A stretch of DNA of 64,000 nucleotides. It comes from Loxodes magnus (lineage: Eukaryota > Ciliophora > Karyorelictea > Loxodida > Loxodidae). The notes beneath the pieces are model-generated. The model searched no databases. It was not told the DNA's origin and worked only from the letters and a program-made list of their open reading frames with translations. Positions within the stretch are counted from its first letter, which is position 1, and each line of letters begins with the position of its first letter. A program made the position numbers and the translations under genes. Below are positions 22,720 to 54,538 of this stretch, in pieces. The DNA is taken from NCBI GenBank assembly GCA_946699065.1, contig CAMPDV010000008.1:496001-560000 (forward strand), read 5' to 3'.

Positions 22720-24456
22720 TCAAAACTTGAGATCAGGTACTGCCCAATTGCACATAGATTCAATATTCAAATTGTCTTTGTACATTTGCATTCTAAACCA
22801 TCCACCTTCTCCCCAGTAAGTACCCCAACTATTTCTTCCTATCCAATATTCCTAACCTTATTCAGTTACACCCCAACCTGCTACACTAATTATGTGATTA
22901 ATGCTTGTTGTTTAAATACTTTCACTGTAAACTCCTCCTTTGTATTCATCAAAAGCGTCAGTAACGTAAATTGCACATGATATTGGTCCTCTTGCATAAA
23001 TTTCCTTTTTCATATCTAGGGCGCCAGCTACGTCTCCAAATTCAGAAACTTTATATGTTCTCCAAGGCTTTACTGCATTGCATTAACTATGTTGGCCTAC
23101 ATCTGGAGTAGGACCTACACATTATTCGCAAATCTAAACATCCGAACAATCAGCTGATTCAGGATCTGTTGCAGTATATTGCTCACAAGTTATATCAGGA
23201 ATTCCATATTAACTAGCAAATTCATAAACATCTCCAGGCCAACCTCCATTACAAGATCCTCCTGCTTAGCAATTCAAAATCATTTAGACTGATAAAGCAA
23301 CTTAATAGGAGTTATTTAAAGCAATATGGAATCTATCAGCAAGAGAAGAAGTACTTCCTTGGGCCCAGCATGATCCGCAATATGTTGGAATATGCTGATT
23401 TTTGTTCCAAGATACATAGTTAACTCCTTATACATTTCTCCAATCAAAATTAGCTGGAAGTTCCTCATCCTTTATATAATCTTTTGGCTATTTTGATTTA
23501 ATGACTGGACCTGTTTTGTATTTTTTTCCAGTTACAGTACATGCTTCTGAATGGAATTTTTTTGATTCCTAAAGGAAGTTGGTTCTTTTCACTGTTCTGG
23601 TCTAAACTTTAGGAACAGCCCAGAATGAAGGATTACTTTCAATTCCCATGCAATCAACACCTCTTTATATTTTAACATTGCCACCATCTCCCCAAAATGT
23701 ACCCCAAGTGTTTCTTACATTCCAGAATTTTACTCCATTTTCTACACCATATCCAAAAATTTCAACAGCATGGTTGTAAGTGGTGCATGTAGTAGTATTA
23801 AAGATATAACCTCCTTTGAAGTTTAAGAACTATTCGTCGATGCATAAGCTAGCTGTTACTGGTCCATTCTATAATTAATTAATTATTTCACTTTCCCCTG
23901 AAATTTATCCATGTGATTCAATATCATAAACTTCATATTATTCAACCGCCCAGCATCCCTAACCTCTTGCGCAATTCATACATTTTATTTCTTCTGAGCA
24001 AGCTAATCCATTTTCATGTCCTCGTGCTTGATAAAGAGAACAAGTTTCATCAGGAATTCCGTTTTCAGCTATCCAAGTATAAGCATTTCCCTAATTTCCT
24101 CCATGGCATCCTGAATTTTCTGTGTTACATGAAAGTAAAACTTAAACTGACAATTAAACATCAGGAAAAGTAGCATTTCTTAATATCTTTAAACGGTCAG
24201 AAAGTGCCGTTAGTGAAGTAAATGCCCAGCATGCAGCACAATGTTCAGGAATGTGTTGATTTCTGGAAACTGTCAAAAAGTTTCTTCCGTTAACATTGTC
24301 CCAACTTAAACTCTCTGGCAATTCCTCAATTGGGCGATACTAGGGAGGATTTCCGAGAGGTTTATATTGTGACTTTGGTGGAGTTAAGCAACTTGATTAA
24401 ATGCTTTGAGAAAGCGAAGCTCCAAGGAAAGTCAATAAGATGACAATAGCTTTCAT
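22720..24456 (-). CDS. tandem cathepsin Z/X cysteine protease (two C1A domains)
   Basis: 579 codons from ATG 24456 to TGA 22720-22722, no intron. A signal peptide ([16 protein letters not shown]) leads into two complete papain-family units of cathepsin Z/X type, a lysosomal carboxypeptidase. Each unit has the short Cys-containing propeptide-like segment and the diagnostic NQHIP mini-loop. Unit 1 has the active-site sequence HCAACWAF, then [10 protein letters not shown] (His) and RNTWG (Asn). Unit 2 has YCGSCWAQ, then [10 protein letters not shown] and [13 protein letters not shown]. Both keep the oxyanion Gln, Cys, His and Asn, so both may be active. Unit 1 has Ala-Ala in place of the usual Gly-Ser before the catalytic Cys. 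Cathepsin Z is normally one domain of about 300 aa, so this is a fused duplication. It is probably delivered to food vacuoles or lysosomes. Confidence 0.93.
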
Positions 24457-26461: not shown

Positions 26462-29123
26462 ATGGAGGTAACCGAGTAAATCATAGAAACGTTTAAAATA
26501 TCTCCCTAGGCAAGAACTCGTTATGATATTTAAATACTAGTGAATGCTACTTAGAATATACTGTTCTTTACAAAACTGAAAGAGTAAGCAGGGGACTATG
26601 CTCATTATATCTGCTGCTCCAAAATGTGAATTTAATAATACAAAGAAAAGGAAAAGATAATATAATATGGGGATTAAGGAGACTAGTTCTTCATTCTTTT
26701 AAAAGGAGAAGTTGGTGTCAAAGTTCCTGTTGATAGAATTGCAGCTCTTAAAGCTATCAAATCTTATCAAAAAATATAAAAAGCCTTGGAATTTATAAAA
26801 GAACACATGAACTTGGGTAATTAGCAAGAAGATCATCTATGAAATGTATAAGAGCAAGATTAAGTTTAGTAGCTTGATCTTAAATAAGGTTTAAAAAAAA
26901 ATGATCTATTAAACTAGTAATAAGCTACATAGCCTATATAAAGTAAAGCTCCATTATAAACTTCGCTATTTAGTTTACAAAATTTTAGGTAATTAAACTA
27001 AATACAAGCCTAAGACTAAAGTCAGCAGCAATAAGATGCAAACATTATCTAAAGCCAAGATCTTTAATAGAACTAATAATAAAACTAGCAGCAAAAATAG
27101 CCTTAAAAGTAATTATAGTTCAAGTAACTAATCCAATAACACTTGAAAAGCAAAATTTAATAGACAGTAGCTAATTAAAAAGATTCAGATTCAAGTTCAG
27201 AAGATTCTTTTATATAAACTCCAGTGAAAGCATTTACCACACTTTCTACGATGTAGATTCCTTAAGAAGTAATAAATCCCAACATATCTTAGTAATCAAT
27301 CTAAGAAATTCAGTTAAAAATGTAGAATTAACTATAAAAACGAAACAGCGTTCTGTAAAATAAATCCTTTGCGTCTAAGTTTCTAAGCTTCATTATAGAT
27401 CCTAGAAAAAGGATAGTACTTAAAGAATATACTACTTTAAAAGCTGGAGATTCTTTTGGTGAATAAGCTATTTTAAATAGGGAACCAAGAGCTGCTACCA
27501 TCTTTTGTAAGACTCCTGTATATGTAGCGGTTTTAGATAAGCAAACATATAATAGCGTTTTGTTAGAAATGCAAAAATTGGAAAGAAATGAAGTGACAAC
27601 ATTTCTCAACTCCATTAAGTATTTTTAGGAATTACCTATAAAGTCACTGACTAAATTTTCCCTTTTCTTTAGCAAATAATCCTATGTTAAAAACTAGTTA
27701 ATTTTCAAAGAAGGACAAAAGTCTAATATGATATACCTTGTTAACTCAGGAGAAATCTAGGTAAGTTTATAATGTTCAGCTTAAGAAAGAAGTGACTTAT
27801 TAGTATGATTTAGGGGAAAGATTCTTAACTAAATATTAGAATAAGAATCTCAATTCAAAAGTTAAGAAACAGGAAGTTGATATTGCTGTTCTTGGAAAGT
27901 TTCAAATGCTTGGAATTTTTGAAGCAATTAATGAACTTCCTTATTACTGCTCAGCTCAGTGCTATTCTTTAGAAGCGCACATTTTTTAAATAGAGGCAAG
28001 TAATTTTTAAAGTGAAATCTATAACGTAGCAACGCTTAACCATATTAAGGAAAATGCCTTAATAAGTTATAAGTGACTTCAATAATAATTCTAACAAGTA
28101 GTTGAAAGATCCTTTAAGAAAAATTGGAATCAGTTCAGTATTCAAAATGGCAAATACTAAGAGTCATTCTCATTTAACTATCATCAAAATGAATAAGAAG
28201 GAGAAGTTACTACTGTTAAACTTAAAGAAGACGAAAAATTTTATCTAAAAGTAAGCAAAAGATCAAAATTAATTCCAATTGAACAATCCTAAATGGGTGA
28301 AAAGCTAAGAAAATTGAGAGAGAATAACGATGTGGTTTTTGCTTAAAAATAGTTTTCAAAAATACCTGATTATTCAACACCACATGTGGCAAATCAAGCA
28401 ACTCTCTAGTATTTAGCAAAGAAAATAGAACCAAAGTTTAAAATTCATTTATTTGATGATGATACTTAAATAAAGGATTATTTCGATAAATTCAATTTAA
28501 AGAAACAGAAGCAAAAGCAAAGCAAATGCAAGTTCAAAATATTAGCTAAGGAATGAGATAAGTAAATTATAAGGCTAGATTTTGCATAAATCTTAGAGTC
28601 TAAAATAATTCCTAAAATGGAAAATTCCTAAAAGGATTTCTTCACTGATAGAAATTCTAGCTATTTAGATGTTAGTGAAAGCTGCTTAATTATTAATAAC
28701 ACTAATCAGACTGTTAGCTAAAATAAAACGTTTGGAAATATTTCTTCAGATAAAGCCTAAAAAGAATTTACTTAAATGTAATTATGCAATTCTTTAGGAT
28801 CTCCCAAAAATCTTAATAATAAGTCACTAAGCGAGAGAAAAGGCCAAGAAGTAAATTTATAGGAGAAAATAAAATAGAAATATAGTAATGATATCCTAAA
28901 AAATAAAAAGCCTTTTTAGAATTATAATATTAGACTAAAAAATAAGGAAAAATCAAGCTAAACTTAAAGATTTTAAACAATACAAGTTGAAGATAAATAA
29001 CTATAACAAGAAAATAGTCCTGCTAGTTTCACTCCTTCAGAGATGAATTTAGGAAAAAATAGATACTTGAAGAGAACTTGGCATAATTTGTTTAGATTTA
29101 AAAAAAGAGCAAACATTCTCTGA
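26462..29123 (+). CDS. cyclic-nucleotide-binding-domain protein with split first domain
   Basis: 881 codons including the TGA at 29121-29123, with a 19-nt intron at 27761-27779. The first CNBD begins near residue 60 (EKIIQYGDQGDQFFILLKGE). It is interrupted by an insert of about 220 residues, partly poly-Gln-rich, and then resumes with the phosphate-binding cassette GDSFGEQAILNREPRAAT near residue 327. The Glu and Arg that hold cAMP or cGMP in PKA/PKG regulatory domains are both present. A second CNBD (residues 395-510) has the fold (LIFKEGQKSNMIYLVNSGEI), but its cassette lacks the Arg (GIFEAINELPYYCSA) and is probably not a binding site. The tail is basic and disordered. There is no kinase or membrane domain. 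It may be a cyclic-nucleotide sensor or scaffold. Confidence 0.85.
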
Positions 29124-29534: not shown

Positions 29535-30761
29535 ATGGAAATTAAGGATTTACAATTATAACCTGAAGAATAAAACTCATATGTTGATGAGATTGCTATA
29601 AAGATCTAAGAAATTGTTGATAATGGATAGGAAAATTCATTTTACTTACTGAATATTAATGAGATCAATAGAAGAATCAATTTATGGGACACTTTGCTTC
29701 CTCGCGTTGAAATGTTTTACTCTGTTAAGTGTAATTCGGACTAGAAAATATTAGAAACTTTGATTAAAAAAGGAAAAGGTTGCGAATGTGCATCGTACCC
29801 TGAAATTCAAAAAGTAATAAAAAGTGGATGTATATTAGATTAAATCATATATGCTCACTGTATAAAAGATAGAATACATTTAAAAATTGCTACTGAACTT
29901 GGAGTCAATCTTCTTGTTTTCGATTCTGCGGAAGAACTAGAAAAGATTAAATAAGTCAATCCTAGTGCACACCTAATTTTAAGGATTGCTATACTAGAAA
30001 CTGAGGCAAGATGTTCAATGACTAAAAAATTTGGTGCTGTTCCTTAATTATGACCTTAATTATTGCAAAAGGTTATAGATTTAAACTTAAGATTGAGAGG
30101 AGTTGCGTTTCATGTTGGATCAGGTGGAGTTAAAATTAATATATATGAAATAGCTCTCTAATATGCCAAAAAAGTTTTTGAAATGGTAGAATCATATAAA
30201 ATGACTCCACTTGATATATTAAATATAGGAGGTGGATTTTCGATGTCTGCCAAAGTAGGGTAGAATTTTAATGAAGTTGCTCCTCGTTTGGCTCAATTGC
30301 TTGATTAATATTTTCCTATTTCACCTAATATAAGAATAATGGCTGAGCCTGGAAGAATAATCTGCTAAAGTTCTTGTACTTTGGCAATGAGAATAATAGG
30401 AATAAAAGATTTAAAAGAGCATGGACGTCATTACTATATAAATGGAGGCATTTATTAAGGTTTTTCTGCCTAAGTTTATGATTTAGAGTTCAATTAACCA
30501 GAACCTTTACTAACATAAAAATAAAAAATGTAAAGGTAATTAAAACAATCCATCATTTGGGGACAAACAAGTGATGGCTTGGATATAATTTGCAAAAACA
30601 TATTATTCCCAGAAATGGATGACGGAGAGTGGATAATGTTTAGAAATACAGGGGCTTACAGTATAGATTGCAATTCTACTTATAATGGATATGAAATACC
30701 TGATGTCTTGTATATTGAAGTATAACACTTAAATTAATTTGTTTCAAATTTATTCCATTGA
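29535..30761 (+). CDS. ornithine decarboxylase homologue with altered substrate-site residues
   Basis: 409 codons from ATG 29535 to TGA 30759-30761, no intron. It belongs to the fold-III PLP decarboxylases (group IV); ODC makes putrescine from ornithine, the first step of polyamine synthesis. Seen: the PLP lysine in FYSVKCNSD (Lys65), AFHVGSG, LNIGGGF, AEPGR, and the C-terminal GEWIMFRNTGAYSIDCNSTY. Two substrate-site residues of canonical ODC differ. The Asp of YVNDGVYGSF (human Asp332) is Gly in YINGGIYQGF, and the catalytic Cys of GPTCDGLD (human Cys360) is Ser in GQTSDGLD. Asp361 is kept. Length (408 aa) is slightly below human ODC (461), which carries a C-terminal degradation tail absent here. 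It may be a weak ODC, have another amino-acid substrate, or be regulatory. Confidence 0.92.
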
Positions 30762-31167: not shown

Positions 31168-31740
31168 TCATTCTTGTGCTTGTTTCTGTGTCTACTGCTG
31201 CTGCTGAGAAGCAAACTTGTTAAAATAATCAATTGTAAACTCTTTCATCAGAAAATTCATTGAAGGAGTTAATTCTCCTAAATATGTAGCAGGATTGCCA
31301 CCATAAACTGAAAAGGGAGCAACTACACTATCTGGCTTAAGAATCGAATTATCAAGGATCATACAGCTATCTTTCAAAACGCATCTATGACTAATAACAC
31401 AATTTTTTCCAATTTTTACAAAGCTTCCAACTTTGGCAGCGCATACAACTGAATCTGCATCTATATAAACATATTCTCCAAGACTCATTTAGGAATATTT
31501 TAAGTGTCCCTTACTTCTCTTATAGCTAGGTCTTAAAACCACATTTTCTTTAATAATTGAATATTTTCCTATCTTTATTATTCCTAAATCTCCTCGAATT
31601 ACAGCTCCCTCTTTTATTATTACTTTTCCATGTAAAGCAATATTAGCTGTCCCTCTAATGAAAGCTCTCTTAGAAATTTTGTTTTTATTTCTAGTTTCGA
31701 AGTATTCTTCCTAATTATAAAGTTCTATTTACTTTTCCAT
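31168..31740 (-). CDS. DCTN5: dynactin subunit 5 (p25)
   Basis: 191 codons from ATG 31740 to TGA 31168-31170, no intron. p25 caps the pointed end of the dynactin filament and helps dynein-dynactin bind cargo such as endosomes. The chain is a left-handed beta helix of hexapeptide repeats, as in the gamma-carbonic-anhydrase family (NIALHGKVIIKEGAVIRGDL, VKIGKNCVISHRCVLKDSC). Blocks match p25 closely: MEKQIELYNQEEYFET at the start, then RPSYK, the ILDNSILKPDSVVAPF turn and GELTPSMNFLMKEFT near the end. Length equals other p25 proteins (about 180-190 aa). A Gln-rich tail (SQQQQQTQKQ) is extra. The start lies 371 bp from the divergent upstream gene. Confidence 0.95.
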
Positions 31741-32111
31741 TTTTACAATTTATCTTTTATTAAATTCATATTAATGCACCCTTTACTCATTAGCACATTA
31801 AACCTTTCATTCTCTAAATTCTTCCTACTTTATATCCAATTATTTCTAAATCGATTTCTTCTCTATATGCTACTTTAAGTTAAAAAACCAAGACAGTTGC
31901 TTGTAGAATAGTAAGGCTATTTTAAACTTTACAATTGCATTGGTTAATTAGTAAAGATAGAATTTAAATAAGCTTAGTAGGGCACATAAAGACTAATAAT
32001 ATTAAAGTTGTGAATAATCTAAATAGTACTAGAGTTTACTTAAGCTAAGAGGATCTAATTACATTGAATAATTATTCCATTTACTCTTAATTAGTTTCTC
32101 TAGTCTTCTAT
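31741..32111. other. divergent intergenic spacer
   Basis: AT-rich DNA between the starts of DCTN5 (-) and the unknown gene (+). Promoters are expected; no element is identifiable. Confidence 0.45.
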
Positions 32112-33040: not shown

Positions 33041-36000
33041 ATGGAGAGACGCTCTTCTATTGACATGTCAAGATTTAGTTCCGTACAATACTTAGGCTAA
33101 AAGGCATATAGAGATTAAAGTCGCAGATCTTCACTTGATTCGAATGCTGTTTCTATAGTTGAAAAATCAAATAAGCGAAATTCAATACTAACTAGCTCTA
33201 TTTTAAGTAAACGAAGCTCAATTGATGCTAGCGATTTATTTAGAGCAGCAAGTTAATCGTAGAATGTTGCAATCAGAAGAGCAAGTATTTAAAGTATGTA
33301 AAACTTACAACAAATTCCTGAACTCAATGAATTTAATGAAGAAGAGCAGAAATAATTTGACTTTAGTGAACTGGAAGATAAAAACTTGACTGATCTTTAG
33401 AAAAAGCTAAAAGTTTTATGATTTTCCAATAAAGAAAAAAATATAAAGGAAGGTAATTTCTTGAAGAATTGGCATATCAACTAAGTTCCTGAACATATTA
33501 AAAAAGGTAGATATTCGCTTGAAAATGACTAAACTACTACTAAAGTTAAAGATCCCTATTAGAGATTGAATTAAGCTTAAAGAAACTATCTAAAACGAAG
33601 GTCTGCTAGAAATAACCAAGAAATGTTTTCAAACTTGATAGTATTTCAAGGGGCTACAGAAGTGATTAGGAAATAATCTAGAAAATCCAGAGCTCAAAGC
33701 ACGAAAAGAACTGAAAGAGATTTAACAAAAAGAAGAAGTGGAAAATTAAAGCATAAATTAGAAATTTTCAATTCTGAACATAAATACTTAGAATCAGAAG
33801 GTAATGAGTTTGAAGAATAGTAACTAACAGGAGCTCTTTTTAAAGTAAATACAGAAATTGAAAGTTTCATTAAAATGACTCAAAGAGCAGGATATTTTTT
33901 TCATATCTACTGAGCATGACTGATGTTCTTATGTAACTCTTATAATATTTTTTCTTGTTTACTATATCTAGGATTAAGAAAATTTCCAAGAGATTGGATG
34001 CTATTATTTGAATGTTTTGCCGAATATATAGTATTAGTCGATCTGATTATTTAATTTTATCTCAGAAGAGATCCTTATATGGCCAAAAGATTTTGAATGA
34101 TAAATGAAGAGCATCGTCCTAATTTTAAGCTTTTCATTTGCATAATTTCAAGTTTTCCAGTATCCATTTTTTTCAAAATTTTGTCATAGTGCATACATTT
34201 ACACTTAGATTCAATCCAGTTGGCATATTTGAGAGTTCCACGAATATTGAGATTCTACTCAATAGTTAACCATTTTGAAAATATATAAATCTTATATAGG
34301 CAAAAGCATACAATACTAACATAACTTCTAGAAATCTTCTTTATTTTAATGTCAGTGTAGCATTTTGGAGCCTGCTTATGACTTTGATCTGCAAGAGTTA
34401 ACATTACTGAAGATGAGTCATGATTTGAATATGAATAAATGGAAAAAGCAAGTATGTGAGAATAATACATCGATGCTAGCTATTGGGGAGTTTGCACAGT
34501 TACTAACGACACTTTTGGTGATATTGCTCCTTCTACTCATATAGAAAGAATATCTGCTTTGCTTATTATGATGATGGGTGAATTTATTTATGGCAAACTT
34601 TTTGGAACTTTTGCAGCAATAATTAATCAACTAAATGGAGTAGAAGTAGAGAACATGTCACTTAAAAATAAAACGTAAGATTGAATTAGAGCTAGAAAAA
34701 TAGAGCCTGATTTCTAGAAGCGTATAATGTCTTTCTATAATTACATAAGGTAGAAGTATTATAACATTAATAATGAACTCATTAACTAACTTCCACTCTC
34801 GCTATAAACTGAAATTAACTTGTAGATATTTCACTAAATGGCTGAGAGATGCACCATGTTTGAGCTTGCTGATCCATCATTTATAATTGCTGTTGTAAGA
34901 AAGCTAAGATAAACATTGGCCACACCTTAAGATTATATTGTTCGAGAAGGTGAAGATGCTTGGGTTTTTTATTTTATCAAAGAAGGAAATGTAGATATTA
35001 TGAGTAAAGGCGAAAGATCTATTTTGGCTAAAATGAAGTGTGGATAATATTTTGGGGAGATTGGAATTTTACTTTAAGACACAAGATCTGTAAGTGTAAT
35101 CGCAACAAGCACTTGTATTCTAGCAACATTAACAAAATAAACCTTTGAAAAATTGCTTAGAAATTTTCCACTATGAAAGGCTTAGTTAATATAGATAGCA
35201 AATTAAAGATTAAAAAGTAGTTCAATCGAAGAAATCAAAAGAAAAACTACTAAAGCTGTCATACCAAAACATTTTCTATCTAGAGCTTAAACTTATTTCG
35301 CACATTTAGATTCATTTGAAGAAAAATCAACTTAAAAATGTAAAGAGGATTCTTGCGACTAAAATAATCCGAAAAAGAAAGAATATTCATTCGCAAAATG
35401 ATTAAAATCAAATTGATTTACTTAAGGATATGTTAAAGCTAAAAATATAAATTATGTTATAGAGCCTAGATCTCGAATATACTATCTTTGAAGCGTATGT
35501 ATGACGTTAGCCATTTGCTTCAACTTATTCTATGTTCCTTTTTCAATTTCTTTCGAATTAGAAGAGCAAATAAAAGATATTTAGCCATTCGATATAATTT
35601 CAGTCATTATTTATGTTGTAGATATATGAATATAATTCTTTATAGCATCAATAGATAATGAAGGATATATTGAGAATAGAAGACAATAGTTAGCTGTAAA
35701 TTATGTGCAGAATTATCTGTTCTATGATATTGTTTCCACTCTTCCCTTTGACATGATAGGCTCAGTAGCCAATGTAGAATACTAAATTTTATCTTATTGA
35801 AGACTATTAAGACTCTTAAGAACATATCGAGTCATAATAATGGTATCTACTTTAATGAAAAATGTGAAGATTAAGCTAACTTACTCCTATCTATTATTCT
35901 ATTTTGTGGTTTATGTAATTTTAAACCATTATACAGCTTGTATTTTCTTTTATATTGGAAGGATTCAATACGATTACTTTCCAAACGCTAGATTTGATCA

Positions 36001-39000
36001 TAAAACATGGTTCTCCTAGTATGGTACAAAAAAGTATAATCTGAATTATAAGAATATATGAGAACTCTCAGAATTCGAGTAATACGTTAATTCATTGTAT
36101 TTTTCCTATTCATGTCTTGGAAATGTAGCTTTTGGAGACATTACTCCAGAGACTATAGCTGAAAAAACATTCGTTATGGTTGTTATGGTTCTTGCCAAAA
36201 TATTTTTAGCATTTATGTATGCAGAAGCAACTAATGTAGTTTAAGCTTCTAAAGCCTCCTTTACAGACTATGTGATGAAAAAGCATACAATTAAATAATG
36301 AATGAATCATATCAATCTCTCCAATGACATTTAGATCAGAATAATGAATCATTAAGACTTAATGTGAAATAAGTTTCAAGGCATTGATGATACATAAATC
36401 TTACACTAGCTTCCTAAAACTTTGAAAGATGATACTCAATTATCTCTTTTGGGAAGATTCTTTGACTCTGACTTATTCTCAGCAGGAGGAATAGGAGTTA
36501 AGATAGCCATTATTAAACGCATGAACCTAGTTATGATTCCTTAAGGAGAGTATATAATCCGTTAAGGTGAGTTAGGAATGGATGTATACTTCATTTTGGA
36601 GGGTACAGTTGCGGTTGTAAATCCTTTGACGGAAGAAATAAGGGTAACTATCGAGCATGGAAAGTATTTTGGTGAAATGGCTATTTTAAGTAACATTCCT
36701 GATGTTAGATCAGCTTCTGTAAAAGCAATTACGAACTGTACTCTAGCAGTTTTGACTAGAGATGATTTCTTCTTTGTATTACAAACTTTTCCAATATTTG
36801 CTGAATAATTTAAAGCTGAAGTAGCTTTGAGATTACAAGAAAGAAAACTTAAAGAGCAAGAAGAAAAATAAAAGTTCTAGCAAAATTTGACTTCAAGCTT
36901 ATCCAAAATTTTATCTGCCAATAATAGCTGGCAAAAATTTAGAAAATTTTCAGTAAATCCATTGGAAAACTAAAATGAGATGGATTAAAACAACTAAGGA
37001 GGAATCCTAAAAGATTAGTTGTAGCAGATACTTACTCTTTCACTGTTTAAAGGAACTTAAAAGAATTTTAAACTTAAAAATGAAGAAGAATATCCGAAGA
37101 AAAAGTCAGTAATTGAAAAAATAAGAAATTCAACAGAAATTATCAGCGAAAATTTTAATTCCCCTAAAAAGATTGAAATAACTGAGTCTTCTCAAAAATT
37201 AGAAAATCAATAGTCGTAACCAACTTTGCATACTTAGTAAGATAATGGCTCACCTAGACAGCAAAAACCAAATATTTTTTCTTTTTTTAAGAAAAAGTAA
37301 AATACAGTACAAGAATCAAAGGTTTCTACTGCAAGTGCAATAAATTCCAACAGTTCTACTTTAATAGTGAAAGAAAACAAGCAATAATAAGTTTAATCTT
37401 AGTAAGAGTCAAATTATTAAACACTTAACCAAAAACCAAGCATTTTATAGTTTTAAAAGAAAATAACAAGTCCAGAAGAACATTAAAAGATAGTAGAGAT
37501 AAAAAACAAAGAATAGCAAATGTAACTTTAAAATGAATAGGATTTATAATAATCTTAAGTACATAAAACAATTAGATCTCCACTAGATACTCTTGTTTAG
37601 TCTCCCAAAAATGAAATAAATGAAAAATAGTTAAAAAAAGATAGCATTTTTGAATAAGCCCCAAAAATAGAAGAAATAATAGAACAAGTTTAAAACTAAA
37701 GGTCTTTTATAGTGAAGATATCCAATAAAGTAGTAAAAATATACAAGAAGATAAAAAATAAAATTTATATCTATAACAGACAGTACGATGGCTTCAATCA
37801 ATTTTTGTTCTTAGTATCCTTATATTTCTACTTAACTATTCCAACATTGATTAGTCTCAAAAGGCCAGTCAATAAAATAATTTTTATCTTTGAAATTTTT
37901 GCTTTAGTTTGATAGAGTTTTGATTTAATAATAGTCTTTTATGAATTTAAGAGCTCGAACAGAAAAAAACTAAAAATAGGCCAAGATTTTGAGATGCTTG
38001 ATAATAAACTATACAAGCAGGTTAATTAGTTTACTAAATCTAAAGAAAATATCAGGTTCAGATGAATAACAAGCAAGAATCAGATCAGCTAAATTGGCAG
38101 TATAGGAATGAGAACAATTTGAACTTTTCCAACAATGATGATTTTTTATTTGTTCTCAATAAAGCCTTGCTAAGATTACTTAACTGTTATATTTCTCTTC
38201 GTTAAACTTACAAGAATAAGACCCTTTTAATAGTTTTGGTACGGCCTCAAGAAAAATTATTTAGGAGCTATTACTCTTATTAGAGTGCTAGAAGCACTAT
38301 TTTACTGGCTTATTATAAATCATCTAATTGGATGTCTTTATGTAATGGTAGGAACTTACTCTGAGAGTAAAGATATAGAAAATACTTGACTTAAAAGAAT
38401 TCCAGTTCCTTAAGAAGAGGGATTCAGAGAAGGCACTTCAGATGATTTAGATCGAATCACTCTTTACATTCACGGAGTTTATTGGGCATTATCAGTATTA
38501 TCTAACGGAGGAATAGGAGAAATCACTCCAATTTCGCTTGAAGAAAAGATTTTTACGATATTCGTGATTGCTTTGGGCACTTTCATTTTCGCTATTATTT
38601 TTGGAAGCATGACTTCCTTAATAACAGACTTAAATTTGTCAAGATGGGATAGTATCAACGAAAAATATGAATAAGTGATGAATTTTATTTAAAAAAAGGG
38701 ACTGAGAAAGTTTGTAGAAAAGTATGTTATAAATTATTATGACTATGTATGAAACTTAAATAGAGGCTTCTATGAAGATCAGTTTCTTTAGACTTTGCCT
38801 CAAAGTCTTAAAAATGATATTCAGCAAGTTTAATTTGATGAAAGTATCAAGAAGTCAGAATTCTTTAAGTTTGATTACGATTATAAGACTTTTCCCCTTA
38901 CAAGATCTATTTTAAACGCTATGAAATTTAAGATATATATGCCAGGAGAAGTCATTGTATCATAAAAAGAAGAGATATTTGATGTATTTGTTATTTTGGA

Positions 39001-41210
39001 TGGCGAAGCATTTGTTGTTGGAAACTTTGGCTGCTTGACTATAGCAACAGGATCTCATTTTGGAGAAATGGCTATTTTGCTAAATCAGAAAAAAAGGACA
39101 GCAAGTGTAATAGCTTCTTCAATGTGCTAAATAGGGATTATACCTTAAAAAGAAATGTCTAATCTAATAGCAGTGTTCCCTAAATGAGCCGATTACTTAA
39201 AAGATATTGCTTTAAAAAGAATGAAAAACAAAAGGCCTGACTTGAAAAAGAAAAGAAAGAAGGAAAGCATACAAAGCACCACTCAATAAAATCTGCTAAA
39301 TCTCCAGTAAATAGATTGAAGCAAACAGATCAAAGAGTAGTTGAGAAGGAGTAAAATTAAGCTAAAGTAATTTATATTAGAAGTTATTCACTTAACTCAG
39401 ATAGTTTACTCTTGTATCTTCCTTCCACTCTTTACAGGAATGAAGGTTAACTTTTCAACACTTTTTATAGTGATAGATGTTTTAATATTTTGTGAAACAT
39501 TTTGCTATATAATTGTTAAAATAGTCTGAAAGGTAGACATTTATGGGAAAATATAGCCCTCGTTATGCTAAAACTTCAAAATAAATTTGAAGTAAGGATT
39601 TATCTATGATATAATTGGCTTATTTCCCTTTAACTTAATTTTTTCATTAGCTGGGATTGAAGAGCCACATTTTTTAATATTCATTTTAAAGAACTTAAGG
39701 TTACTTGGAGCATTTAGAATTCCGAATATAGTAAATACAATGATACAATTAAGAAGACAATCAGCAAGATTCATAGCATCACTGAGATTGCTTTTGTTTT
39801 TCATTATCCTGTGGCACTGGACTACCTGTGCTTGGTTTTATTTAAATATTGAGCTTGAAATTGAACATGAAACATGGTATAATTTCTTTGAAATTTATGA
39901 TGAGCCTATGCAAGCTAGATATTTATGAAGCGTTTACTATATTATGCAGCTCTTTGCACATTTAGGCTATGGAGATGTTTTTCCTGTCACTGATTCAGAG
40001 AGAGTGGCCAGTATTTTTATAATGCTTATGGGTGATGCTTGCTTTGCAATAATATTTGGTACCATGGCTAGTTTAGAAATAACAAGTCTCTCTAAAGAGC
40101 ATTCTGTGGAACTATTTTTGGAGTAAATAAAGAAAACTTAAGAGGTAATGGCTGATTATGACATCAATGAGGATGTTAAAAATAGAGTGGAAAAATTTTT
40201 CGTATATAACTGAAGCATGAATAGAGAACTAGCATCAATGGATTTCTCAAAGCTAAATAAATATTTACCTCAATCGCTTGTTTAATAAATCAGCTTTACT
40301 TACTTCAAGGAAATTCTGCAAACTGTACCTTTCCTAACTCATATGGACATAAATTTCATTCGAGCTCTTTCAGTATACTTAAAACCAGCAATGTACTAGC
40401 CTCTAGATTTTGTAGTAGTATAGGGAGAATGGGGCTAGTAAATGTACTTTTTAATGGAAGGAATTTGTCATGTAATACAGTATAAGAAATAGTAAGCAAT
40501 GCTTAAAGCAGTTCTATAATTTGGGGATTTCTTTGGAGAATACTCTCTACTGAATTAATGTATTAGAAGAGCTAGTGTCATAACAGCAAGCTACTGTAGT
40601 GTTTACACACTAAGAAAAGAACAATTTGACAAGGTTCTAAACGATTTTCCAGATTACTAGAAATTAATTACTAGTTTAGGTAAATTTTTATTTTGCAGCT
40701 GAAAAGTAAATTAAAATTAGAAAGAAGAAAATGAAGGAGAAAGAAAAAGAAGAAGAGAAGAAAAAACAGTTGATTGAATAAGGGCTAGACGAAGATGAAG
40801 CATTTTTCCGAGAACTTAATCAAGAGTTAGAAAATCAAGCGAAAATAAAATCAAGAGGGTTAATTCTGAAAAATACGCTACGAGAGCTTGACAAGCCACT
40901 ACTAACCTAAGAAATTTTAGAAGAGAAGATATAGCAAAATAAGTTGTCACGATCTTATTTTAACTTCTCAAAAAATCCTTTGATCTATAATAAAGATTTC
41001 TTGAAATAAGTTCAAGGTAATTTCTAATTTTAGGAAGAAAAGATTTAACTTAGGATTGACTTGAAGAGGAGACGCTTGAAAGAGAAAAATACAGATTAAA
41101 GTGCTATATCTATCGATAGGAACCTAAAGAAAAACGCCTTCAGAGACGCAAAAGCTTAATTAGTCATGGTAAAGAGTATATTCTTGATAACTATGAAGAG
41201 CTTTTTATGA
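33041..41210 (+). CDS. four-repeat (pseudotetrameric) cyclic-nucleotide-gated channel, about 2,716 aa
   Basis: One frame runs from ATG 33041 through a 19-nt intron (40680-40698) and holds four full CNG/HCN-type units, each with S1-S6, a pore loop and a cyclic-nucleotide-binding domain (CNBD). The pore filters lie at about residues 488 (TNDTFGDIAP), 1028 (GNVAFGDITP), 1821 (SNGGIGEITP) and 2308 (HLGYGDVFP). The CNBD cassettes all keep FGE and a downstream Arg: YFGEIGILLQDTRSVSV, YFGEMAILSNIPDVRSASV, HFGEMAILLNQKKRTASV, FFGEYSLLNQCIRRASV. Repeat 2 has a classic S4 (RLLRLLRTYR); the others are weaker. The N-terminal 130 residues carry several basophilic kinase sites (RRSS, RRAS). A Q/S-rich linker of about 350 residues joins repeats 2 and 3. 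The end is TGA 41208-41210; nearby TGAs at 41216 or 41400 are alternatives. Four-repeat CNG channels (CNGK) are known from sea-urchin and zebrafish sperm. It is probably ciliary or plasma-membrane. Confidence 0.93.
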
Positions 41211-42871: not shown

Positions 42872-44014
<1,143 letters not shown>

Positions 44015-44239: not shown

Positions 44240-47200
44240 TCATATTAAAATAAGAAATCCGAGTAGTTCCGCAATATATAGTATAGAGGCACTATCCTTC
44301 TCTTCTTGTTCCTAGTTTTGCCCATCATTTTCTTCCTAGTCAGAATAAGTAGTAAAATCTAAGCATTTAACGTCTGAGGATGGCGAATTGAAGATTGATC
44401 CATAATGATTAATAGCAACTGCACATGTGGTATACCAAGTGCCAGGTTGTAACCCAGTAAACTATATAATAATTTAAGTTGATTCATCTAGAATTTCATC
44501 CTTGTTACTTGGGAAAGTTGTCTCAATTTAATTCAAAACTTACTAGTTGTTCCAATCTAACCCATAGATTACTTGACTTTTTGAAAGATCTCCAAATGAG
44601 CTATTCTAATAGAGTATTACAACATATAAATAATTCTTTTCTAAGCCTGAATAAGTTAGCATGACATCAGTTTTAGAAATCTATATTAATGGATCGACAT
44701 AGGAAAATTAAGGTTTAACAGAGCTAGCTTGAGATAAATCTAAAATATTTTGAGATTAATTTGAGAATCCAAGCCCAGCTACGTCAGAAGTATTTTAGTT
44801 TTTAGATAAGAGTCCTTAGAAATTTACCAAGCAAGATACACAAGATATAGCTTATTCAAGAGTATATTAGGGGGATGCTTAAGTAAGACCTTAAGGATCT
44901 GAAACCAAATTAACTACTATTTCGTAAGTGGGGCTAGATTAAAGTTGTCTTCTTGAAGAGGACTTCTAAAATATCCAATCTTGGTCGAACTTTATTTAAG
45001 CACAATTTCAGTTAATTGCTTAAGCAAACGCGCATATAATTTAACTTATTACTTCTTCAGTTAAAGTTTCCTTTGAACTTACCGAACAACTTCCAAAGGC
45101 GTCTTGTGGTAATTATTGTGTTTAGAAAGTAACTGTTTAGAGATTTGAATAAGCTCCATTCAAAACTTAAGTTGCTATGTATAAGTTATACTCAGTTTCA
45201 GCCCATAAAAAGTCTTCTTTTAGTTAATTTCCATGACTCAGAGTGATGGCTTAGCTTTCGGAATAAATAATTACAGGAGTACCAATATAATATTAGGAAG
45301 ATAAATGCTAATCATATAGCTCTTAATTTTATAACTCCCAATCAGTAAGGACAATTTTTCCATCTGATTCATTATTTTCTTCTTCCTCTTCTTCTACCCC
45401 TTCTTCTTACTCCTCAGTTTCATTTTAAGTATTATTTTTTCGCTAAAGAATTCTAGAAGCTTCTCTTATATCTTCAGCTGAATTTGGTGTCTCAGTGTTT
45501 TTTGCCCAATTAACCATTTCCTAGGCATTTTAAGGTGGATTTTATTAGGAAGGCATAATCATCCAATATAAAAATCCTTGATCCTGAGAAGTAACTTATA
45601 TATTTTCAAAAGAAAAGATTCCAATCGTCATGCCACTTGTATCTACTGATATGGAAGGGTTTTTATCAACGAGTTCAATAACAGTGAATTTTATATAGTC
45701 ATAGCTATATATTTAGTAAGACTCTGCATTTTCTCCAAAGAAAGTAAAGTTTACTCTAAACGAAGATCCTTTTAGGAAGTCCCAATTAGTTACAGACACA
45801 ATAAAGCTTTATTTTCCTTATCATGTGCTGAATGCTAAGACATTACTACTTAGCTATACATTAGCTTCATTATTGTATGGTGCTTCGATGCTAGTCTACT
45901 CATCTTAGTCAAATTATAAGGACAAGTTTAAGAATACTTGAGAAGATGGATTGCTACTCAGTCAAATTTCAACTGGTAATGAACTATAACCATCTGGAAC
46001 TTAGATTTATCTTGTAGTCATATTTAAATATCCGTATGTATTTTAATTTGCTTGGTAGACAAATACAGAAGTTTTTCCTAAATTTCCGTAAACATTTGTT
46101 GGATTTTGAATTGGTTTATTCCAGATAATATACTTGATAGTCTCAGCTTCGTTATTTTCTGCTATAATTCTGAAGCTAATAGTGTAATCCAATTTATGCA
46201 AAACGTTTTATGTATTATTTTCTCCAAATTAAACCCAATCATTTTCAGCACTTATTTCAACATAATTAATTGTTACTGGGAACTTTTTAGATTCTTCCAA
46301 AGTTTCAGCTGTTGCAATGTAGAATGATTAGCTTTGTAAGCCAGCTGTTACAATTAAAGGATTTTAGCTACTTGCAACGGTTCCATCACTTGACAATATC
46401 CAGAGTAAGTTTAAGAAGCTTGAAAAGCCTTAATAAGCATGAGATAGGATACCATATGATCTTGCATTGGTAATTTGATTAGCATTTTAAGTTGAAATAT
46501 CATGGATCGAAATATAAAACTTAGAGGTATATTTTTGATAAGTAACCCATAAGTTATCAATTAAAATAGTAGGGGTAGGATCGATCCAAGTATAGTCAAA
46601 GGAAGAATCAGTTCTTTTACTTCCTGAATCTGGATTTAAAACATTCTGTATAAGCAATACGTAGTTATAGTAAGTAGTTTAGTCTAAATTTGAAGCAAAA
46701 GTAACATCATTTGTGGGTTACCATTAAAGAGCGTTTCCTTGCTAATTCTATGTATAATTTGCAGTACATGATGTGGCTCCAATTTAAACTCCTTGAGTTT
46801 TATAATCTCCAATACTAGCAACTTAATACATAAAGCAGTTAAAATTTAAAGGATTGCTTTCTGTAACAGCAGTTACAGTAGGCTAAATACTATATTCGTC
46901 AGGGAAATAGACGAAAAATTTTCCTTCGTTTTTACTAAAAGCTGTAGCTGTCTTAGTATCTGTAGAAGATTACATTACATTGAACTTTATTTCGTATTAA
47001 TCAATTCCTCTCAAATTATGGCTTCCTTCTATGTAAGATATGTTTACATTAATTAGATCAAAAGAATGTGATGATTTTTGAGAGAAAGTATACTAAGTAG
47101 AGTACAGCACTTGAATTTTATGCTCTAAGTCTTCATTATTAGGCTGCATTACAGCAAGGTAATATGTTTGAACATCTTAAATAGTTGGATTCCTTATACC

Positions 47201-50200
47201 AACTAGTTGAATTGTTAATTTACTTCCTATTTTAACTTCATCGGTTATCAAAACTCTTACAACATGCTTCTTTACTTTGCAGTTTGCACCTACCAAATAA
47301 TCTTCATTATCAACATTCACTAAGCACGGGAGGAAATAAATTGGATAATCATCTTCATCTGAGATACCGCTAAACCACTCAGAAGAATCTCCAACATAGT
47401 AATCATAAGCTAAGAAGTTGAAATAAATCCATATTTCTTATCCGTAAGATAGAGGAGTATTTTAAGTGTTATTCCAAATTAGCGAAAAAGTATATTATGC
47501 TTATTCTCCATATTGCTCAGGATAGACTGAAAGATTTGCTAATTTGCCAGTACTGAAGGTCTCTGCTTCTGAGGCAAGTTTGGCATATTATGGATCAGTA
47601 TCATATTTACTAATATTAGTTTGTGCATCTACTTGTTAAGTCTAGAAATAAGTCTAAACTAACCAGGCCTAAGTGCTTGTGATGGAGATTTTAGTTGGGT
47701 TTCTTATAAATTAGATCAAATCCAATTTATATTCCTTTTTAGAAATTATATTTTCCATTGGATAAATAATCAATGAAGAGCCTGTTACAACGCATGTAGC
47801 TACGAAATCTGAAAAACAATGATACTATTCGTCAAAATTAGGGTTTACTGAGTAATCTTATGGAATACTAATTACTATTCTTGGCTGCTAAGATAGCTGT
47901 ATAAAATATGAATTATAAGGAAGTGTCGTAGTTACTGTAAAAGTTATTTAGACGTCTGAGTAAATTCATTTGGCTTCTGCACTGATAGGACTCAAATTAT
48001 CTGGAGTTAATTTGACATTAGTTATGAAGGCATATCTATAATCTCTTCTATAAACTTATATTTTAAAGTCATCGTAGTTAACATCTACTCCGCATTTCCA
48101 GGAAATGGCTTAATTTAAATTTTCGCAAAGGTAGATTAACTTAGTTTTATCCCAGTTTCCATAAGCATAGAGATATTTAAGTAAGAAAGCTACTGACGAC
48201 CCTGATTCAAAGTTTTTATTAACCTATTCAATTACTAGTGTATCTTTAAATTCTACAGTAAGTTGGTTATCTAAATCAGATCCGAGATTACAGGTAATTA
48301 CTGACTGTGTAGTCACAGGAGATCCACAATATACTTCATTAACTATAATGAAAGAAGGTAAAAATTTAGTATTATCCCATTAAAACGTTACAGGACATCC
48401 TTTACAAAGTGGCCTATCTCCATATAAGTAGAAATTAGCCTTGAAGTCCACTACTTTTCTTTCATCTACTGAATTTTCTTTAAATGTAGCGCCATAAAAT
48501 CCTTCTTGATATGGGGTAATTAGGATTGAATTATAAGTTTTTCCTGCTTCTCCTTCATCCCAATCATTTCCACATGCCATATATAACTTAAATCCGTCAT
48601 TTGCAAGTGTATAGTCAAGTTGCTCTCCAAAAGGTCCTAGAATATCTAAGATTTCTACATCATTTGTCCAAGTTGGCCAAACATCTTCATCATGATATGC
48701 AATTACTAATTAAGTGGTATAAGATTACCCTTGCTTTTGCATTTCCCAAAAATTGATATAAGTCAAATTACCTCCTCTCGAAGAAGAGGATCTTTAAGAA
48801 ATTAACTCTGATACTCCGTCAAACCAAGTAAATAGATAAGGGATTTGAATAATGCATCAGCTATCTGTTCCCATACCATATTTCATTCTTTGAGTAACCA
48901 TAATATCAGAATATCTACCACTATCTAACTCCCAATCTATCATATTCCAGTTCATGTAAGCTTTATCATTATCAGTATAATAATCACGATAGGGAACTGA
49001 GGATTCTCATATATAAAGAGGTCCATTATTAGAAGATGACGATGAAAGCTAGCCTAATTTTAAAATTGTGCGAGAAAATCCAGTAGCATCAGTCCAAACA
49101 AATACAGCTGAGCAACTCAAAGCTGATACGTGGCTCGTTACTTATTTAGTTACTACGGGAAATAATCCTCAATAAACATTCTGTTGTCCATCTTAATCAG
49201 GATTGTATGTATCATCATATATTATTGTTGCTATATAGTTAGAAACACTCATAGTTACACTTCCTTAATAACTATTTTTTCTATTTCCAAATTCTGATAT
49301 ATCAACTGGATAGTCAGATGCCGATGTGGAATCTAATCCAAAAGTTGAACTTGAGAAATAACTTTGAGAGCTGTCACAGTTAATTTACATTTCTACTGTT
49401 TCACTTTGTTTTGAAGCTGGAATTTCAAAATCCCATGTTAACATATTTTCATAGTAAACTTCATCTTATGCTCTAGTTGGAATTTTAACTTTCCATATTA
49501 ATGCATCCCATCCGCCTTCATGCTAATTACCTATTGGTTTGAGAGAAAAACACTCATCAAGACATCTTTAATCTCCGTCGTTTTCTTATGTTGCGTAATT
49601 AACATTTTTGAAGGCACAGTTCCATGCAACCCATAATAAAGTATCAGGATCTAACTAAAAGGCACAAATTTCATAATAATGATTATTAGGAGTGTAAGCT
49701 GGATATCTAGGTGTTGAGGATTATATGGAAGATGAAACTGGATCCTTTATGTCTTTCAATTAAGTGATATAATAACTAGTCCAAGCTCTATTACTACCGC
49801 CAACATTTTTTCTTTCAAAGGATAAGACTCCATCACCAGCCTATGCTTTAGAAGCAGTATAATAATTTTTTATTTAAGAGCTTAGATGATTATCAGAAGT
49901 TATTAAAAGTTAAGAACCTTCTTCTTCAAAATAATACATATCACTGTTGCTGTTATAAGTTATTTCTATTAATTCTACAACATCATCCTTTATAGTATCC
50001 ATTTAAGTACTAAAAGCAGATTAAGATGTCATTTTAAAGGATGTTGCTGTTCCTGCAGTTCCTCCTTCATTTCATGTCCAACTGAAGTCACTTCCTCCAT
50101 ATAGTTGTTAAGTTCCTATTGTTATTGGAGTTCCTGTAGCTATAGATAGTTTCTCATCAATTTTAGTTACTCCTTAATCTATATATGATACTATAGAAGA

Positions 50201-51535
50201 AAAGCATCCTTGTGATTCTGCTCTTACCTAAGTAATAAGATAGATTTTTGGTCCATTGGCAGTAGAGGCGAAATTACTTATTTAAATAGAATCAGACGAA
50301 ACAAATGAAGCACTGACATAATTATAACCAGCTTGAGGTAACAAACCAGTTACGTAAATTAAGTGGTCGGTATCTGCTTAAATCCCTGTACTTTATTGCA
50401 TTCCTTTCAATTTTATATCAATCCTACCTCCAGCTAGGACTGGATGCTCTAATTGAAAAGAAAAGGTAATAAAAACATTAAGGCCATTAGGGACTTATTT
50501 TTGATTTATGTACTTCACATATTTGTCTTTATTCGTTAAATCACATCCAAAATCGAACGGAATTCCTGTTTTTAAATCACTAGAAAAAGTAACATGCTTT
50601 GATTCATATTTATATACAGGTCCTCCCTCATAAGTATATCTTTAAGTCCATATATCAAAAGCTAGCTGACTTTTGATGAATTTCGCTTGTGGATTAGTAG
50701 CATTATAAATTCTGAAAACTGCATATTTCATATTTTTATTAGAACTCCTAGGGTCTAGATTATTAGCTAAGCCATAAATATTTATTGTTTGTCCTTTTAT
50801 TTAGAAATCTATTTTGTATGAATCATCACTTTCTTGCTAATAAACACTTTTTATTTCGTTTCGAGTTCACTCAGAATACTGTTAGTATCCACTTCCTTAT
50901 CCCATGAATACTGATTTTACATGAGTGACAGTTGATAAATCGAATTTATCAGAAACAGTTATGTAGAAATTATCTCCCCAATACATGGGTTTACTCAAGA
51001 CAATTTAAACCTCAAGAATTGATTTTTCTAGTATTAAGTTTTTCATAGCGCTCTAATTTTCTACGTTATCTTTGTCTAAAGGTGTGAAGAATCGGACTGT
51101 TGCTGACGACAATTCACTTAGCTGCGCTCCAAAGCCCAAGGTTGCAAAATTTCAATTCACGTCTTCTAGCTGTCCTCCAGCATTTTTGGTTCAAAGAGCA
51201 AAAGAGCCTGTTGAAGAGTAAGCACTAGGATTAGTGATTCCTGAAGTAGTAAATGTGTAGCATTATGAATTTCCTATTTAAGTAGCTGTGTAAGATTTAG
51301 CAGAAAAAGAATACTCGCTTGGAAAATCTACAAACACTTAGATAGTTTTTTCCAATAGTTAGTCAAATTTTAAATAGAATGTGTATGTTGCAACAGCAGC
51401 GCCATTGGAAGAGGAAGGAACTATTGGATCTGGATATCATCCTTCATCACAGTATGTAATCCTTCGAGGAAAAGGGTCTTGTAAGGCAAAGCCAACAATT
51501 GAGAGGAAGATCAGTTACAAAATCAACTTTCTCAT
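44240..51535 (-). CDS. giant secreted surface protein, about 2,431 aa
   Basis: One frame of 2,432 codons from ATG 51535 to TGA 44240-44242, with no frame change. It begins with a signal peptide (MRKLILQLIFLSIVGFALQ). The body is Ser/Thr/Tyr/Val-rich and strand-like throughout, with repeated extracellular beta-sandwich-like stretches and scattered Cys (PLCKGCPVTF, GDQRCLDECFSLK). Near the C-terminus FTGLQPGTWYTTCAVAINHY resembles the end of a fibronectin type III-like domain. An acidic run lies near residue 2045. The last residues form a short hydrophobic tail (SASILYIAELLGFLILI) after a charged spacer, compatible with a GPI-anchor signal or a weak membrane anchor. Trp is often TGA. No enzyme motif is visible. 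It is likely a cell-surface coat, adhesion or mating-type-like protein; the role is inferred from architecture only. Confidence 0.85.
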
Positions 51536-52699: not shown

Positions 52700-54468
52700 T
52701 CATTTGTTGTAGTATTCTTGACTCAAAAACATTATAAGAATAGTTATATCATCAACAACATCATCTTCCTAAATTGTTAATTTTTACTCGCTTCCAATTT
52801 GCTACACTTTCTTTTACTACTTTATCACATGCTGCCATGGCATTGTTTTGCTCATAAAAGGGAATTATCATTCTCATGCACTATATTTAATTTCTTACTT
52901 CATCATTATCAATAAATTCTCAAACTCCATCACTTGCAAGTACAATAAACTTATCATCTGGAGTTATTTCAAATTCAAGAATTTCTATATAAAAATTAAT
53001 ACCTGGCTCAGAAATAACTCCTACTTAAGCTGCAACAGCGTCTCCTAGAGATCTCGACATCGCTAATCCAGGAGCATTTTCATTCTTAAGTCAAACTCTT
53101 GCTGGACCTATAGGATCTCCGTTTTAATCTTTATTTAATATTTTTACCTTTGAAAGGATCAACTCTTCCTCCATTCTTAATTATTCTAGCTTATTCTTAT
53201 TTATCATCAGGTTTATGATCTCTACTTAAGGCTATGCTTTATCAAGAGTTTTTTGCTTTTCTGCACATGATTGCTCTTGAGTCTCCTACGTTCGAACATA
53301 TGAGAAGAGATCCTCTAATCATAACTGTGACACAAGTAGATCCAGAAAAAGAGATATCGATTTATCCATTATTAAGCTCTTAATTAGTTTTCTTAAATCC
53401 TTCTGTAATACATTTCTTTATTACTTCTTTTTCTTATTCTTCATATGGATATCCAGCTTTCTTAACTTTTGCCGGAATTAAGTTTTCTATATGATAAGGA
53501 AGATTCCGCTTTATATAATCACTAACATCATGTCCATGGATGCCATGTCCATCCATAACTGATAGAAATATCATATTCTTTTATTCTACAAAGTCAAAAA
53601 TTTCAAAATGATTATCTTGGTTATTTTTTTTAGGTCTATTTGAAATCTATCCTGTTTTTGACTTCTTAGCTATTTATTACATAACATTTGGAATTATATA
53701 CGGAGTCTAATTATTTTAGCTTTAGTTCTACATTTAGGCGAGGGCATTCAAATGATTTTATGCTATTGATGTAATCTTTGGTACAGTTACAAAATTAGAA
53801 GCTTAAGGTTTCTATTTTAATTAGTATAATTCATTCACAGACTAATTTCTGCTTTTCTACCTTGAAGGACTTTAATTTGTCAACGTAATTAGTCCAGGAG
53901 CTCTGGAATCAAATGAATGTACCCGTTACTCTATTCTATTAGGAAGTAGAATTTGATTACTTTAAATAGAGTTAGGAGCAAGCTTCTTATTATTTTTATG
54001 AGTTTCTTCTAGTTTAGGAAGCTTGACTTTATTAATGGAAAATCCACTTTAGATGTTATTGTTTGATACTTAATTTAAGTAGTCTATTAATTTAGGCTCC
54101 TTATGAGATTTATTCAAGTTTCTCTACTTCTAGGGCGTTTATTTCTTTTATTGCTGTATTTTTAATTCCTCATATTAATTAGCTTTTTAATAAGGTTTGA
54201 AATTATCTTAGGCAAGAACTGAATTTGAGGAAGCAATGTTTCCGTCTAAGCTAAGCCTATGCTAATGTAAGATTTCAGATGAACTAGGAATAATTTTATG
54301 GCTAGTAGGGGCTCTTTATTTGAAGGGAAATATTCCTTTGTTATTAAACGAATCAGATCTAGAGTTTAGCTTTCTAATTTCAATATCTTTATTAAATCTT
54401 GCTTATTTTTCCCTTGATTTGATAGTAGCTTAATGAGGCTTAGACTGGCTTCTCTTTTAAGTTGACAT
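52700..54468 (-). CDS. PP2C-family (PPM) Ser/Thr phosphatase with long N-terminal extension
   Basis: Three exons with two 19-nt introns (53129-53147 and 52769-52787) give 577 codons from ATG 54468 to TGA 52700-52702. The first 250 residues are basic, Ser/Gln-rich and probably disordered. The catalytic domain follows with all metal-binding and phosphate-binding motifs: NNQDNHF, VMDGHGIHG, FSGSTC, VGDSRAI, LSRDHKPD, GGRVDPF, APGLAMSRSLGD, ASDGVWEF and DDITILIMFL. PP2C enzymes are Mn/Mg-dependent monomeric phosphatases. The invariant Trp of SDGVWE is encoded by TGA, and both splice joins are forced by the motif order. The start lies 70 bp from the divergent Sec14-like gene. The N-terminal tail may target or regulate the enzyme. 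No membrane segment. Confidence 0.95.
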
Positions 54469-54538
54469 TTTTATAATTAAAAATTTCCTTAAATTCCATT
54501 TTTGCCATTTCTACATTTCACTACTGAGATTAAAAATA
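54469..54538. promoter_or_regulatory. 70-bp bidirectional promoter region (inferred)
   Basis: Two divergent start codons lie only 70 bp apart, so the promoters must share or overlap. No consensus element could be named. Confidence 0.45.

Follow-up and report, generated by a model that had tools for sequence, protein, structure and literature searches.

A single open reading frame of the karyorelict ciliate Loxodes magnus encodes four complete channel units in succession, each with transmembrane segments S1–S6, a pore, a C-linker and a cyclic nucleotide-binding domain (CNBD). The frame lies on the forward strand at positions 33041–41210 of the window, by which we mean the whole 64,000-nucleotide stretch analysed here (contig CAMPDV010000008.1, positions 496,001–560,000). 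When TAA and TAG are translated as glutamine, and TGA is taken to encode tryptophan, it yields one chain of 2,716 amino acids and holds one intron of 19 nucleotides. We consider it likely that this chain forms a pseudotetrameric cation channel modulated by cyclic nucleotides, the pore of which is asymmetric and probably weakly selective, and that its N-terminal tail carries kinase-type sites.

The initial annotation had proposed four such units in one frame, and two independent approaches bear this out. In Pfam searches of 33041–40679, cNMP_binding (E 1.3e-60), Ion_trans (E 3.5e-36) and Ion_trans_2 (E 4.4e-25) each matched four stretches. A hidden Markov model (HMM) derived solely from 18 bacterial channels and run on the six frames of the whole window matched the four units only (E 3e-65, 1.2e-63, 4.7e-50 and 4e-61, from repeat 1 (R1) to R4), with no further match in those frames and none in the reversed proteins. 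Four unit-length matches from an independent model, together with the empty reversed control, rule out chance or a misread code, and confirm that the four-unit frame is real. For R3 the match begins no earlier than profile position 93, as the S1–S4 region of this repeat is divergent. In all four units S1–S6 are followed by the C-linker and CNBD, as in the CNBD-channel superfamily. An AlphaFold2 model of R3 (mean predicted local distance difference test score (pLDDT) of 78.2) contains the S1–S6 helices, pore helix, C-linker and beta-roll, and in this one repeat of the four the S4–S5 linker is short (fewer than 10 residues, between helices 150–162 and 164–200). Foldseek aligned the model with GORK, SKOR, SthK, AKT1 and HCN4 over 478–509 columns (E 1.1e-22 to 3.6e-21), with query TM-scores of just 0.38–0.46 in the seven top rows.

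UGA is described as the sole stop codon of L. magnus and as also encoding tryptophan, and introns as averaging 19.3 bp (PMC11441545). We inspected the tails of seven other genes in the window past their conserved ends. TGA was the first TAA, TAG or TGA codon in five of the seven (L7Ae, C1 peptidase, kinase, PP2C and the large minus-strand gene); the exceptions were DCTN5, with a TAG within a glutamine run before TGA, and the decarboxylase, with two TAA codons before TGA. The gene tails and the short intron are consistent with the karyorelict code (table 27) but do not prove it. Counting the terminal TGA, the frame has 2,717 codons; 28 TGA codons are internal. Nine of the 24 TGAs within repeats fall in columns in which tryptophan is the commonest residue of those bacterial rows that have one: the C-linker tryptophan of R2, R3 and R4, the S1 tryptophan of R1 and R2, two S5 positions of R1, and the turret tryptophan of R1 and R3. 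The C-linker column holds tryptophan in 17 of 18 bacterial rows, and the turret tryptophan is TGA in R1 and R3 and TGG in R2 and R4. Excision of the intron gives a helix pattern after the CNBD that matches the other repeats (IANQR, VALRL, IALKR and LAEKQ). The 19-nucleotide intron proposed earlier holds, and so does the ciliate-type code.

The pore loops depart from those of potassium channels in every repeat. T[VI]G[YF]GD is found in every one of the 18 bacterial rows, whereas none of the four repeats has this consensus, nor TVG[YF]G or a close variant of it, a trait of the CNBD-channel superfamily. The potassium-channel threonine is replaced throughout (by N, N, N and H in R1 to R4), and the first glycine of GYG is gone in R1 (TFG) and R2 (AFG); R3 has GIG and R4 GYG. 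HCN1, which is known to be only weakly selective for potassium, has a cysteine where the potassium-channel filter has threonine. From this parallel, and from the loss of threonine in all four filters and of the glycine in two, the pore most likely conducts cations with weak selectivity and is not strictly confined to potassium.

The FGE motif and the phosphate-binding arginine of the cassette are kept in all four CNBDs; in an alignment with hERG, the latter has another residue in place of the arginine. The arginine is followed by S, S, T and R in R1 to R4. In animal channels a threonine here goes with a preference for cyclic GMP, a correspondence that we do not use for a firm ligand prediction. 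The S4 segment is regular in R2 (RLLRLLRTYR), and its charges are fewer or less regularly placed in R1, R3 and R4; the S3 aspartate is present in R2 and R4 and absent from R1 and R3. Residues 3–83 of the N-terminal tail (33047–33289) contain five [RK]Rx[ST]-hydrophobic motifs, compared with a mean of 0.17 in shuffled tails (0 of 20,000 shuffles reach five), and such clustered basophilic sites suggest control by a kinase. Also on the forward strand, downstream of the channel gene (42899–44005), is a gene for a protein kinase (Pfam Pkinase, E 3.6e-75) that looks to be of the AGC type from its motif; its product is at most a candidate for acting on these sites.

We fetched 80 bacterial loci and extracted 26 open reading frames, from which subsets were chosen to thin near-duplicates and fragments (18 in alignment A2, 14 in the first tree, 9 in the second, 7 in the score matrix and 6 in A3). 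The repeats are 20–25% identical to one another and are joined by linkers of 79, 310 and 46 amino acids. In the score matrix, the bacterial channel L001 scores 161, 147 and 150 bits with R1, R2 and R4, compared with 114–116 bits for their sisters, and 114 bits with R3, compared with 89–92. Among the best 60 solved-structure matches per repeat, hERG and EAG come closest to R2 (136 bits versus 111 for SthK), and LliK or SthK to R1, R3 and R4. The end branches of the repeats are long (around 1.9–3.2 changes per site). The best trees group R1–R3 (support 94/85 and 88/92) and set R4 apart, with a weakly supported pairing of R1 and R2 (59/2). A clade of all four repeats is neither supported nor rejected (P = 0.35 in the 24-row tree, P = 0.20 in the 16-row tree). 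Pair tests on the 16-row tree, to be read in light of the long branches, gave P = 0.49 for R1+R3, 0.35 for R2+R3, 0.088 for R3+R4, 0.064 for R2+R4 and 0.055 for R1+R4.

Stop and start codons are placed at the boundaries between units in a way that speaks for one polypeptide, and a single mRNA is predicted for the whole chain. Two or more genes placed head to tail in one seeming frame are highly improbable. Nearly any frame appears open under this code, the R1–R2 and R3–R4 linkers contain TGA, an ATG at codon 2061 follows TGA 2049, and Loxodes 3′ untranslated regions are short (mean 53 bp; PMC11441545), all of which such an arrangement would accommodate. It is countered by codons 1110–1623, which span the R2–R3 linker without an in-frame TGA, and by the lack of a usable start: the first ATG beyond TGAs 712, 787 and 792 is codon 821, within S1 of R2, and the first beyond TGA 2093 is codon 2134, where S1 of R4 ends. 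The linkers also have a G+C content of 25–33%, compared with 22–24% in the flanks. The R3–R4 linker holds an in-frame 15-nucleotide GT...AG stretch (39307–39321, +) containing TGA 2093; this could be a second, mini-intron, the removal of which would delete that TGA in frame, and the fusion is unaffected either way. It is very improbable that the gene is decaying or encodes a non-conducting scaffold whose filters are degenerate and whose nucleotide-binding domains alone still count: the consensus filter is indeed absent from every repeat, but the frame is unbroken across 8 kb, the cassettes are intact in all four repeats, and tryptophan, glycine and proline positions are kept throughout.

Several points weigh against a single, cyclic-nucleotide-modulated, weakly selective channel. 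Fifteen of the 24 TGAs within repeats lie outside tryptophan columns. A codon HMM put 39243–39425 in a different frame and missed the 19-nucleotide intron; we kept our frame there because it encodes S1 of R4 and is the frame used by the bacterial HMM. A tandem model of R1–R2 was poor (pLDDT 56.7), with no packing seen. TGA 2049, at the end of the third CNBD, and ATG 2061, 12 codons on, form a conceivable boundary between R3 and R4 genes; a split there would leave about 33 nucleotides between the two, and we consider it very unlikely. As to function, the third CNBD alone is functional in sea-urchin CNGK, and pH gates zebrafish CNGK despite its four CNBDs (PMC4749565), so that intact CNBDs are no proof of gating by cyclic nucleotides. 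A 2020 survey also cautions that primary structure does not allow selectivity to be predicted (PMC7576140).

Among characterized channels, LliK and SthK are the relatives of solved structure closest to R1, R3 and R4 over S1–CNBD or S5–CNBD, but a bacterial chain is one unit with the filter TVGYGD or TIGYGD. KCNH channels (hERG and EAG) and plant SKOR and GORK, the nearest solved relatives of R2, likewise have one unit per chain, and hERG lacks the cassette arginine. The four-domain channels Nav, Cav and NALCN have no CNBDs, and the 60 best solved-structure matches of each repeat include none of them. They resemble the ciliate chain in having 24 transmembrane segments in one polypeptide and an asymmetric pore and linkers (PMC6259924). 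Two-repeat CNBD channels are described from dinoflagellates and oomycetes in the 2020 survey, with none found in ciliates; these too are covalently joined six-transmembrane CNBD units in SAR protists, with repeat identities of at most 30%, but they have two units rather than four, and CNBD elements are partly deleted in dinoflagellates (PMC7576140). In the literature covered, single-chain four-unit CNBD channels are recorded only in animals (sea urchin, fish and others) and the choanoflagellate Salpingoeca rosetta, as CNGK (PMC4749565). The open-licence literature that we searched contains no four-unit CNBD channel of a ciliate, although unreported cases in Tetrahymena, Paramecium or elsewhere are possible, and 134 pattern matches in viral contigs included no relatives.

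The likeness to CNGK that had been claimed for the chain stands for its architecture, in that both Pfam and the bacterial HMM find four six-transmembrane CNBD units in one polypeptide, known in the ciliate from genome sequence. CNGK-type physiology, that is, a potassium channel gated by cyclic GMP, does not follow. CNGK filters are canonical GYG or GFG (PMC4749565), and no ciliate filter matches the potassium consensus; CNGK domains are described in a 2018 review as near-identical, with equally short linkers and no specialization (PMC6259924), in contrast to the divergent ciliate repeats and their unequal linkers. Because units and pore loops have diverged so strongly, ion preference cannot be taken over from animal CNGK.

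How the four units came together admits several explanations. A true orthologue of CNGK, descended from a four-repeat chain that predates the split of animals and ciliates and was lost in many lineages, is unlikely; on this account the ciliate copy merely evolved fast and may still be a potassium channel. Unit number and order agree with it, a single clade of repeats is not rejected, and CNGK repeats pair 1 with 3 and 2 with 4 (PMC7576140), the first of which pairings is also not rejected here. The second is borderline, however, and the filters, the low identity and the unequal linkers speak against orthology, as does the 2020 survey, in which no tandem channel was found in ciliates or apicomplexans (PMC7576140). 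It is unlikely, too, that R2 came from a KCNH or plant-type channel and was joined later to R1, R3 and R4 of CNG type. The solved-structure matches divide the repeats in just this way and L001 outscores every sister for each repeat, but rapid evolution of all four could yield the same scores; moreover, the best trees, albeit weakly, pair R1 with R2 and set R4 rather than R2 apart, and the cassette arginine missing from hERG is retained in R2. We tentatively put forward, at a little under even chances, a fusion that arose apart from both CNGK and Nav/Cav and gave a single-chain karyorelict channel with 24 transmembrane segments, a four-way asymmetric, non-potassium filter and four competent sensors.

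We infer the assembly, ligand gating and ion preference of the chain from its sequence. The polypeptide would fold as a pseudotetramer, with one pore lined by four S5–P–S6 modules and an intracellular gating ring formed by four C-linker/CNBD modules, in which binding of cyclic AMP or cyclic GMP would open the pore or bias it. Fusion would have allowed the repeats to diverge, so that voltage-sensing, pore and ligand roles are probably divided among them, as the regular S4 of R2 and the missing S3 aspartate of R1 and R3 suggest. Cyclic nucleotides and a kinase may thus together control a cation channel that sets membrane potential. In Paramecium, ciliary beating is affected by cyclic nucleotides (PMC4588039), and the putative channel probably couples such signals to membrane potential and hence to ciliary beating; a ciliary role is plausible. 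It would be a candidate for connecting cyclic nucleotides with membrane potential in the group of ciliates that includes Loxodes, which orients to gravity by means of Müller organelles (PMC5460273). The ciliate case makes ancient versus repeated fusion testable. If the interpretation is correct, a CNBD channel was able, like Nav/Cav, to break its fourfold symmetry once fused, a specialization with no counterpart in CNGK as reviewed in 2018 (PMC6259924); if the origin was also independent, the chain is a natural parallel to the divergence of the Nav/Cav pore after fusion.

Table 1. Features of the four-unit channel gene and of other genes in the window
Feature	Positions	Strand	Evidence or remarks
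Whole coding region	33041–41210	+	Exon 1 33041–40679, intron 40680–40698, exon 2 40699–41210
N-terminal tail, 275 aa	33041–33865	+	
Repeat 1: S1–S6, C-linker, CNBD	33866–35209	+	Pfam, bacterial HMM, LliK E 4.8e-47
Repeat 1 filter NDTFGD	34505–34522	+	
Repeat 1 phosphate-binding cassette FGE...R	35051–35098	+	
Linker R1–R2, 79 aa	35210–35446	+	TGA codons 787, 792
Repeat 2	35447–36841	+	Pfam, bacterial HMM; best solved relatives KCNH (hERG, EAG)
Repeat 2 filter NVAFGD	36122–36139	+	
Repeat 2 phosphate-binding cassette FGE...R	36668–36721	+	
Linker R2–R3, 310 aa	36842–37771	+	Q/K/N-rich, without in-frame TGA
Repeat 3	37772–39226	+	Pfam, bacterial HMM, AlphaFold2 mean pLDDT 78.2
Repeat 3 filter NGGIGE	38504–38521	+	
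Repeat 3 phosphate-binding cassette FGE...R	39059–39109	+	
Linker R3–R4, 46 aa	39227–39364	+	
Repeat 4	39365–40679	+	Pfam, bacterial HMM, LliK E 1.6e-38; last helix continues into first residues of exon 2
Repeat 4 filter HLGYGD	39959–39976	+	Sole GYG among repeats
Repeat 4 phosphate-binding cassette FGE...R	40532–40579	+	
Intron, 19 nt, GT...AG, GTAAATTTTTATTTTGCAG	40680–40698	+	Inferred; matches Loxodes mean intron size
Exon 2: C-terminal tail rich in K/E	40699–41210	+	Includes terminal TGA 41208–41210
L7Ae ribosomal protein	13231–13977		Pfam
Leucine-rich repeats	17371–18778		Pfam
Orn/Arg decarboxylase	29565–30719		Pfam
Dynactin subunit 5	31172–31863		Pfam
PP2C	52764–54612		Pfam; two frames, intron probable near 53130
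CRAL_TRIO	54747–55403		Pfam
DENN	58441–60972		Pfam

ARAGORN found no tRNA genes in the window (1–64000), and a weak SNORD36-like snoRNA match lies at 11997–12061 (+; 31.1 bits versus a gathering score of 30, E 0.57). The minus strand encodes a predicted protein of around 2,400 amino acids (44289–51501) with no Pfam match at E 0.001. A few kilobases upstream of the channel, a separate protein (26900–29083, +) has two cNMP_binding stretches (E 6.1e-14 for 26900–27796) and no channel domain; the frame shifts near 27796, perhaps at a mini-intron. Another fused-repeat gene, at 22735–24423 on the minus strand, carries tandem papain-type C1 peptidase domains in one frame (two stretches, E 8.7e-87).

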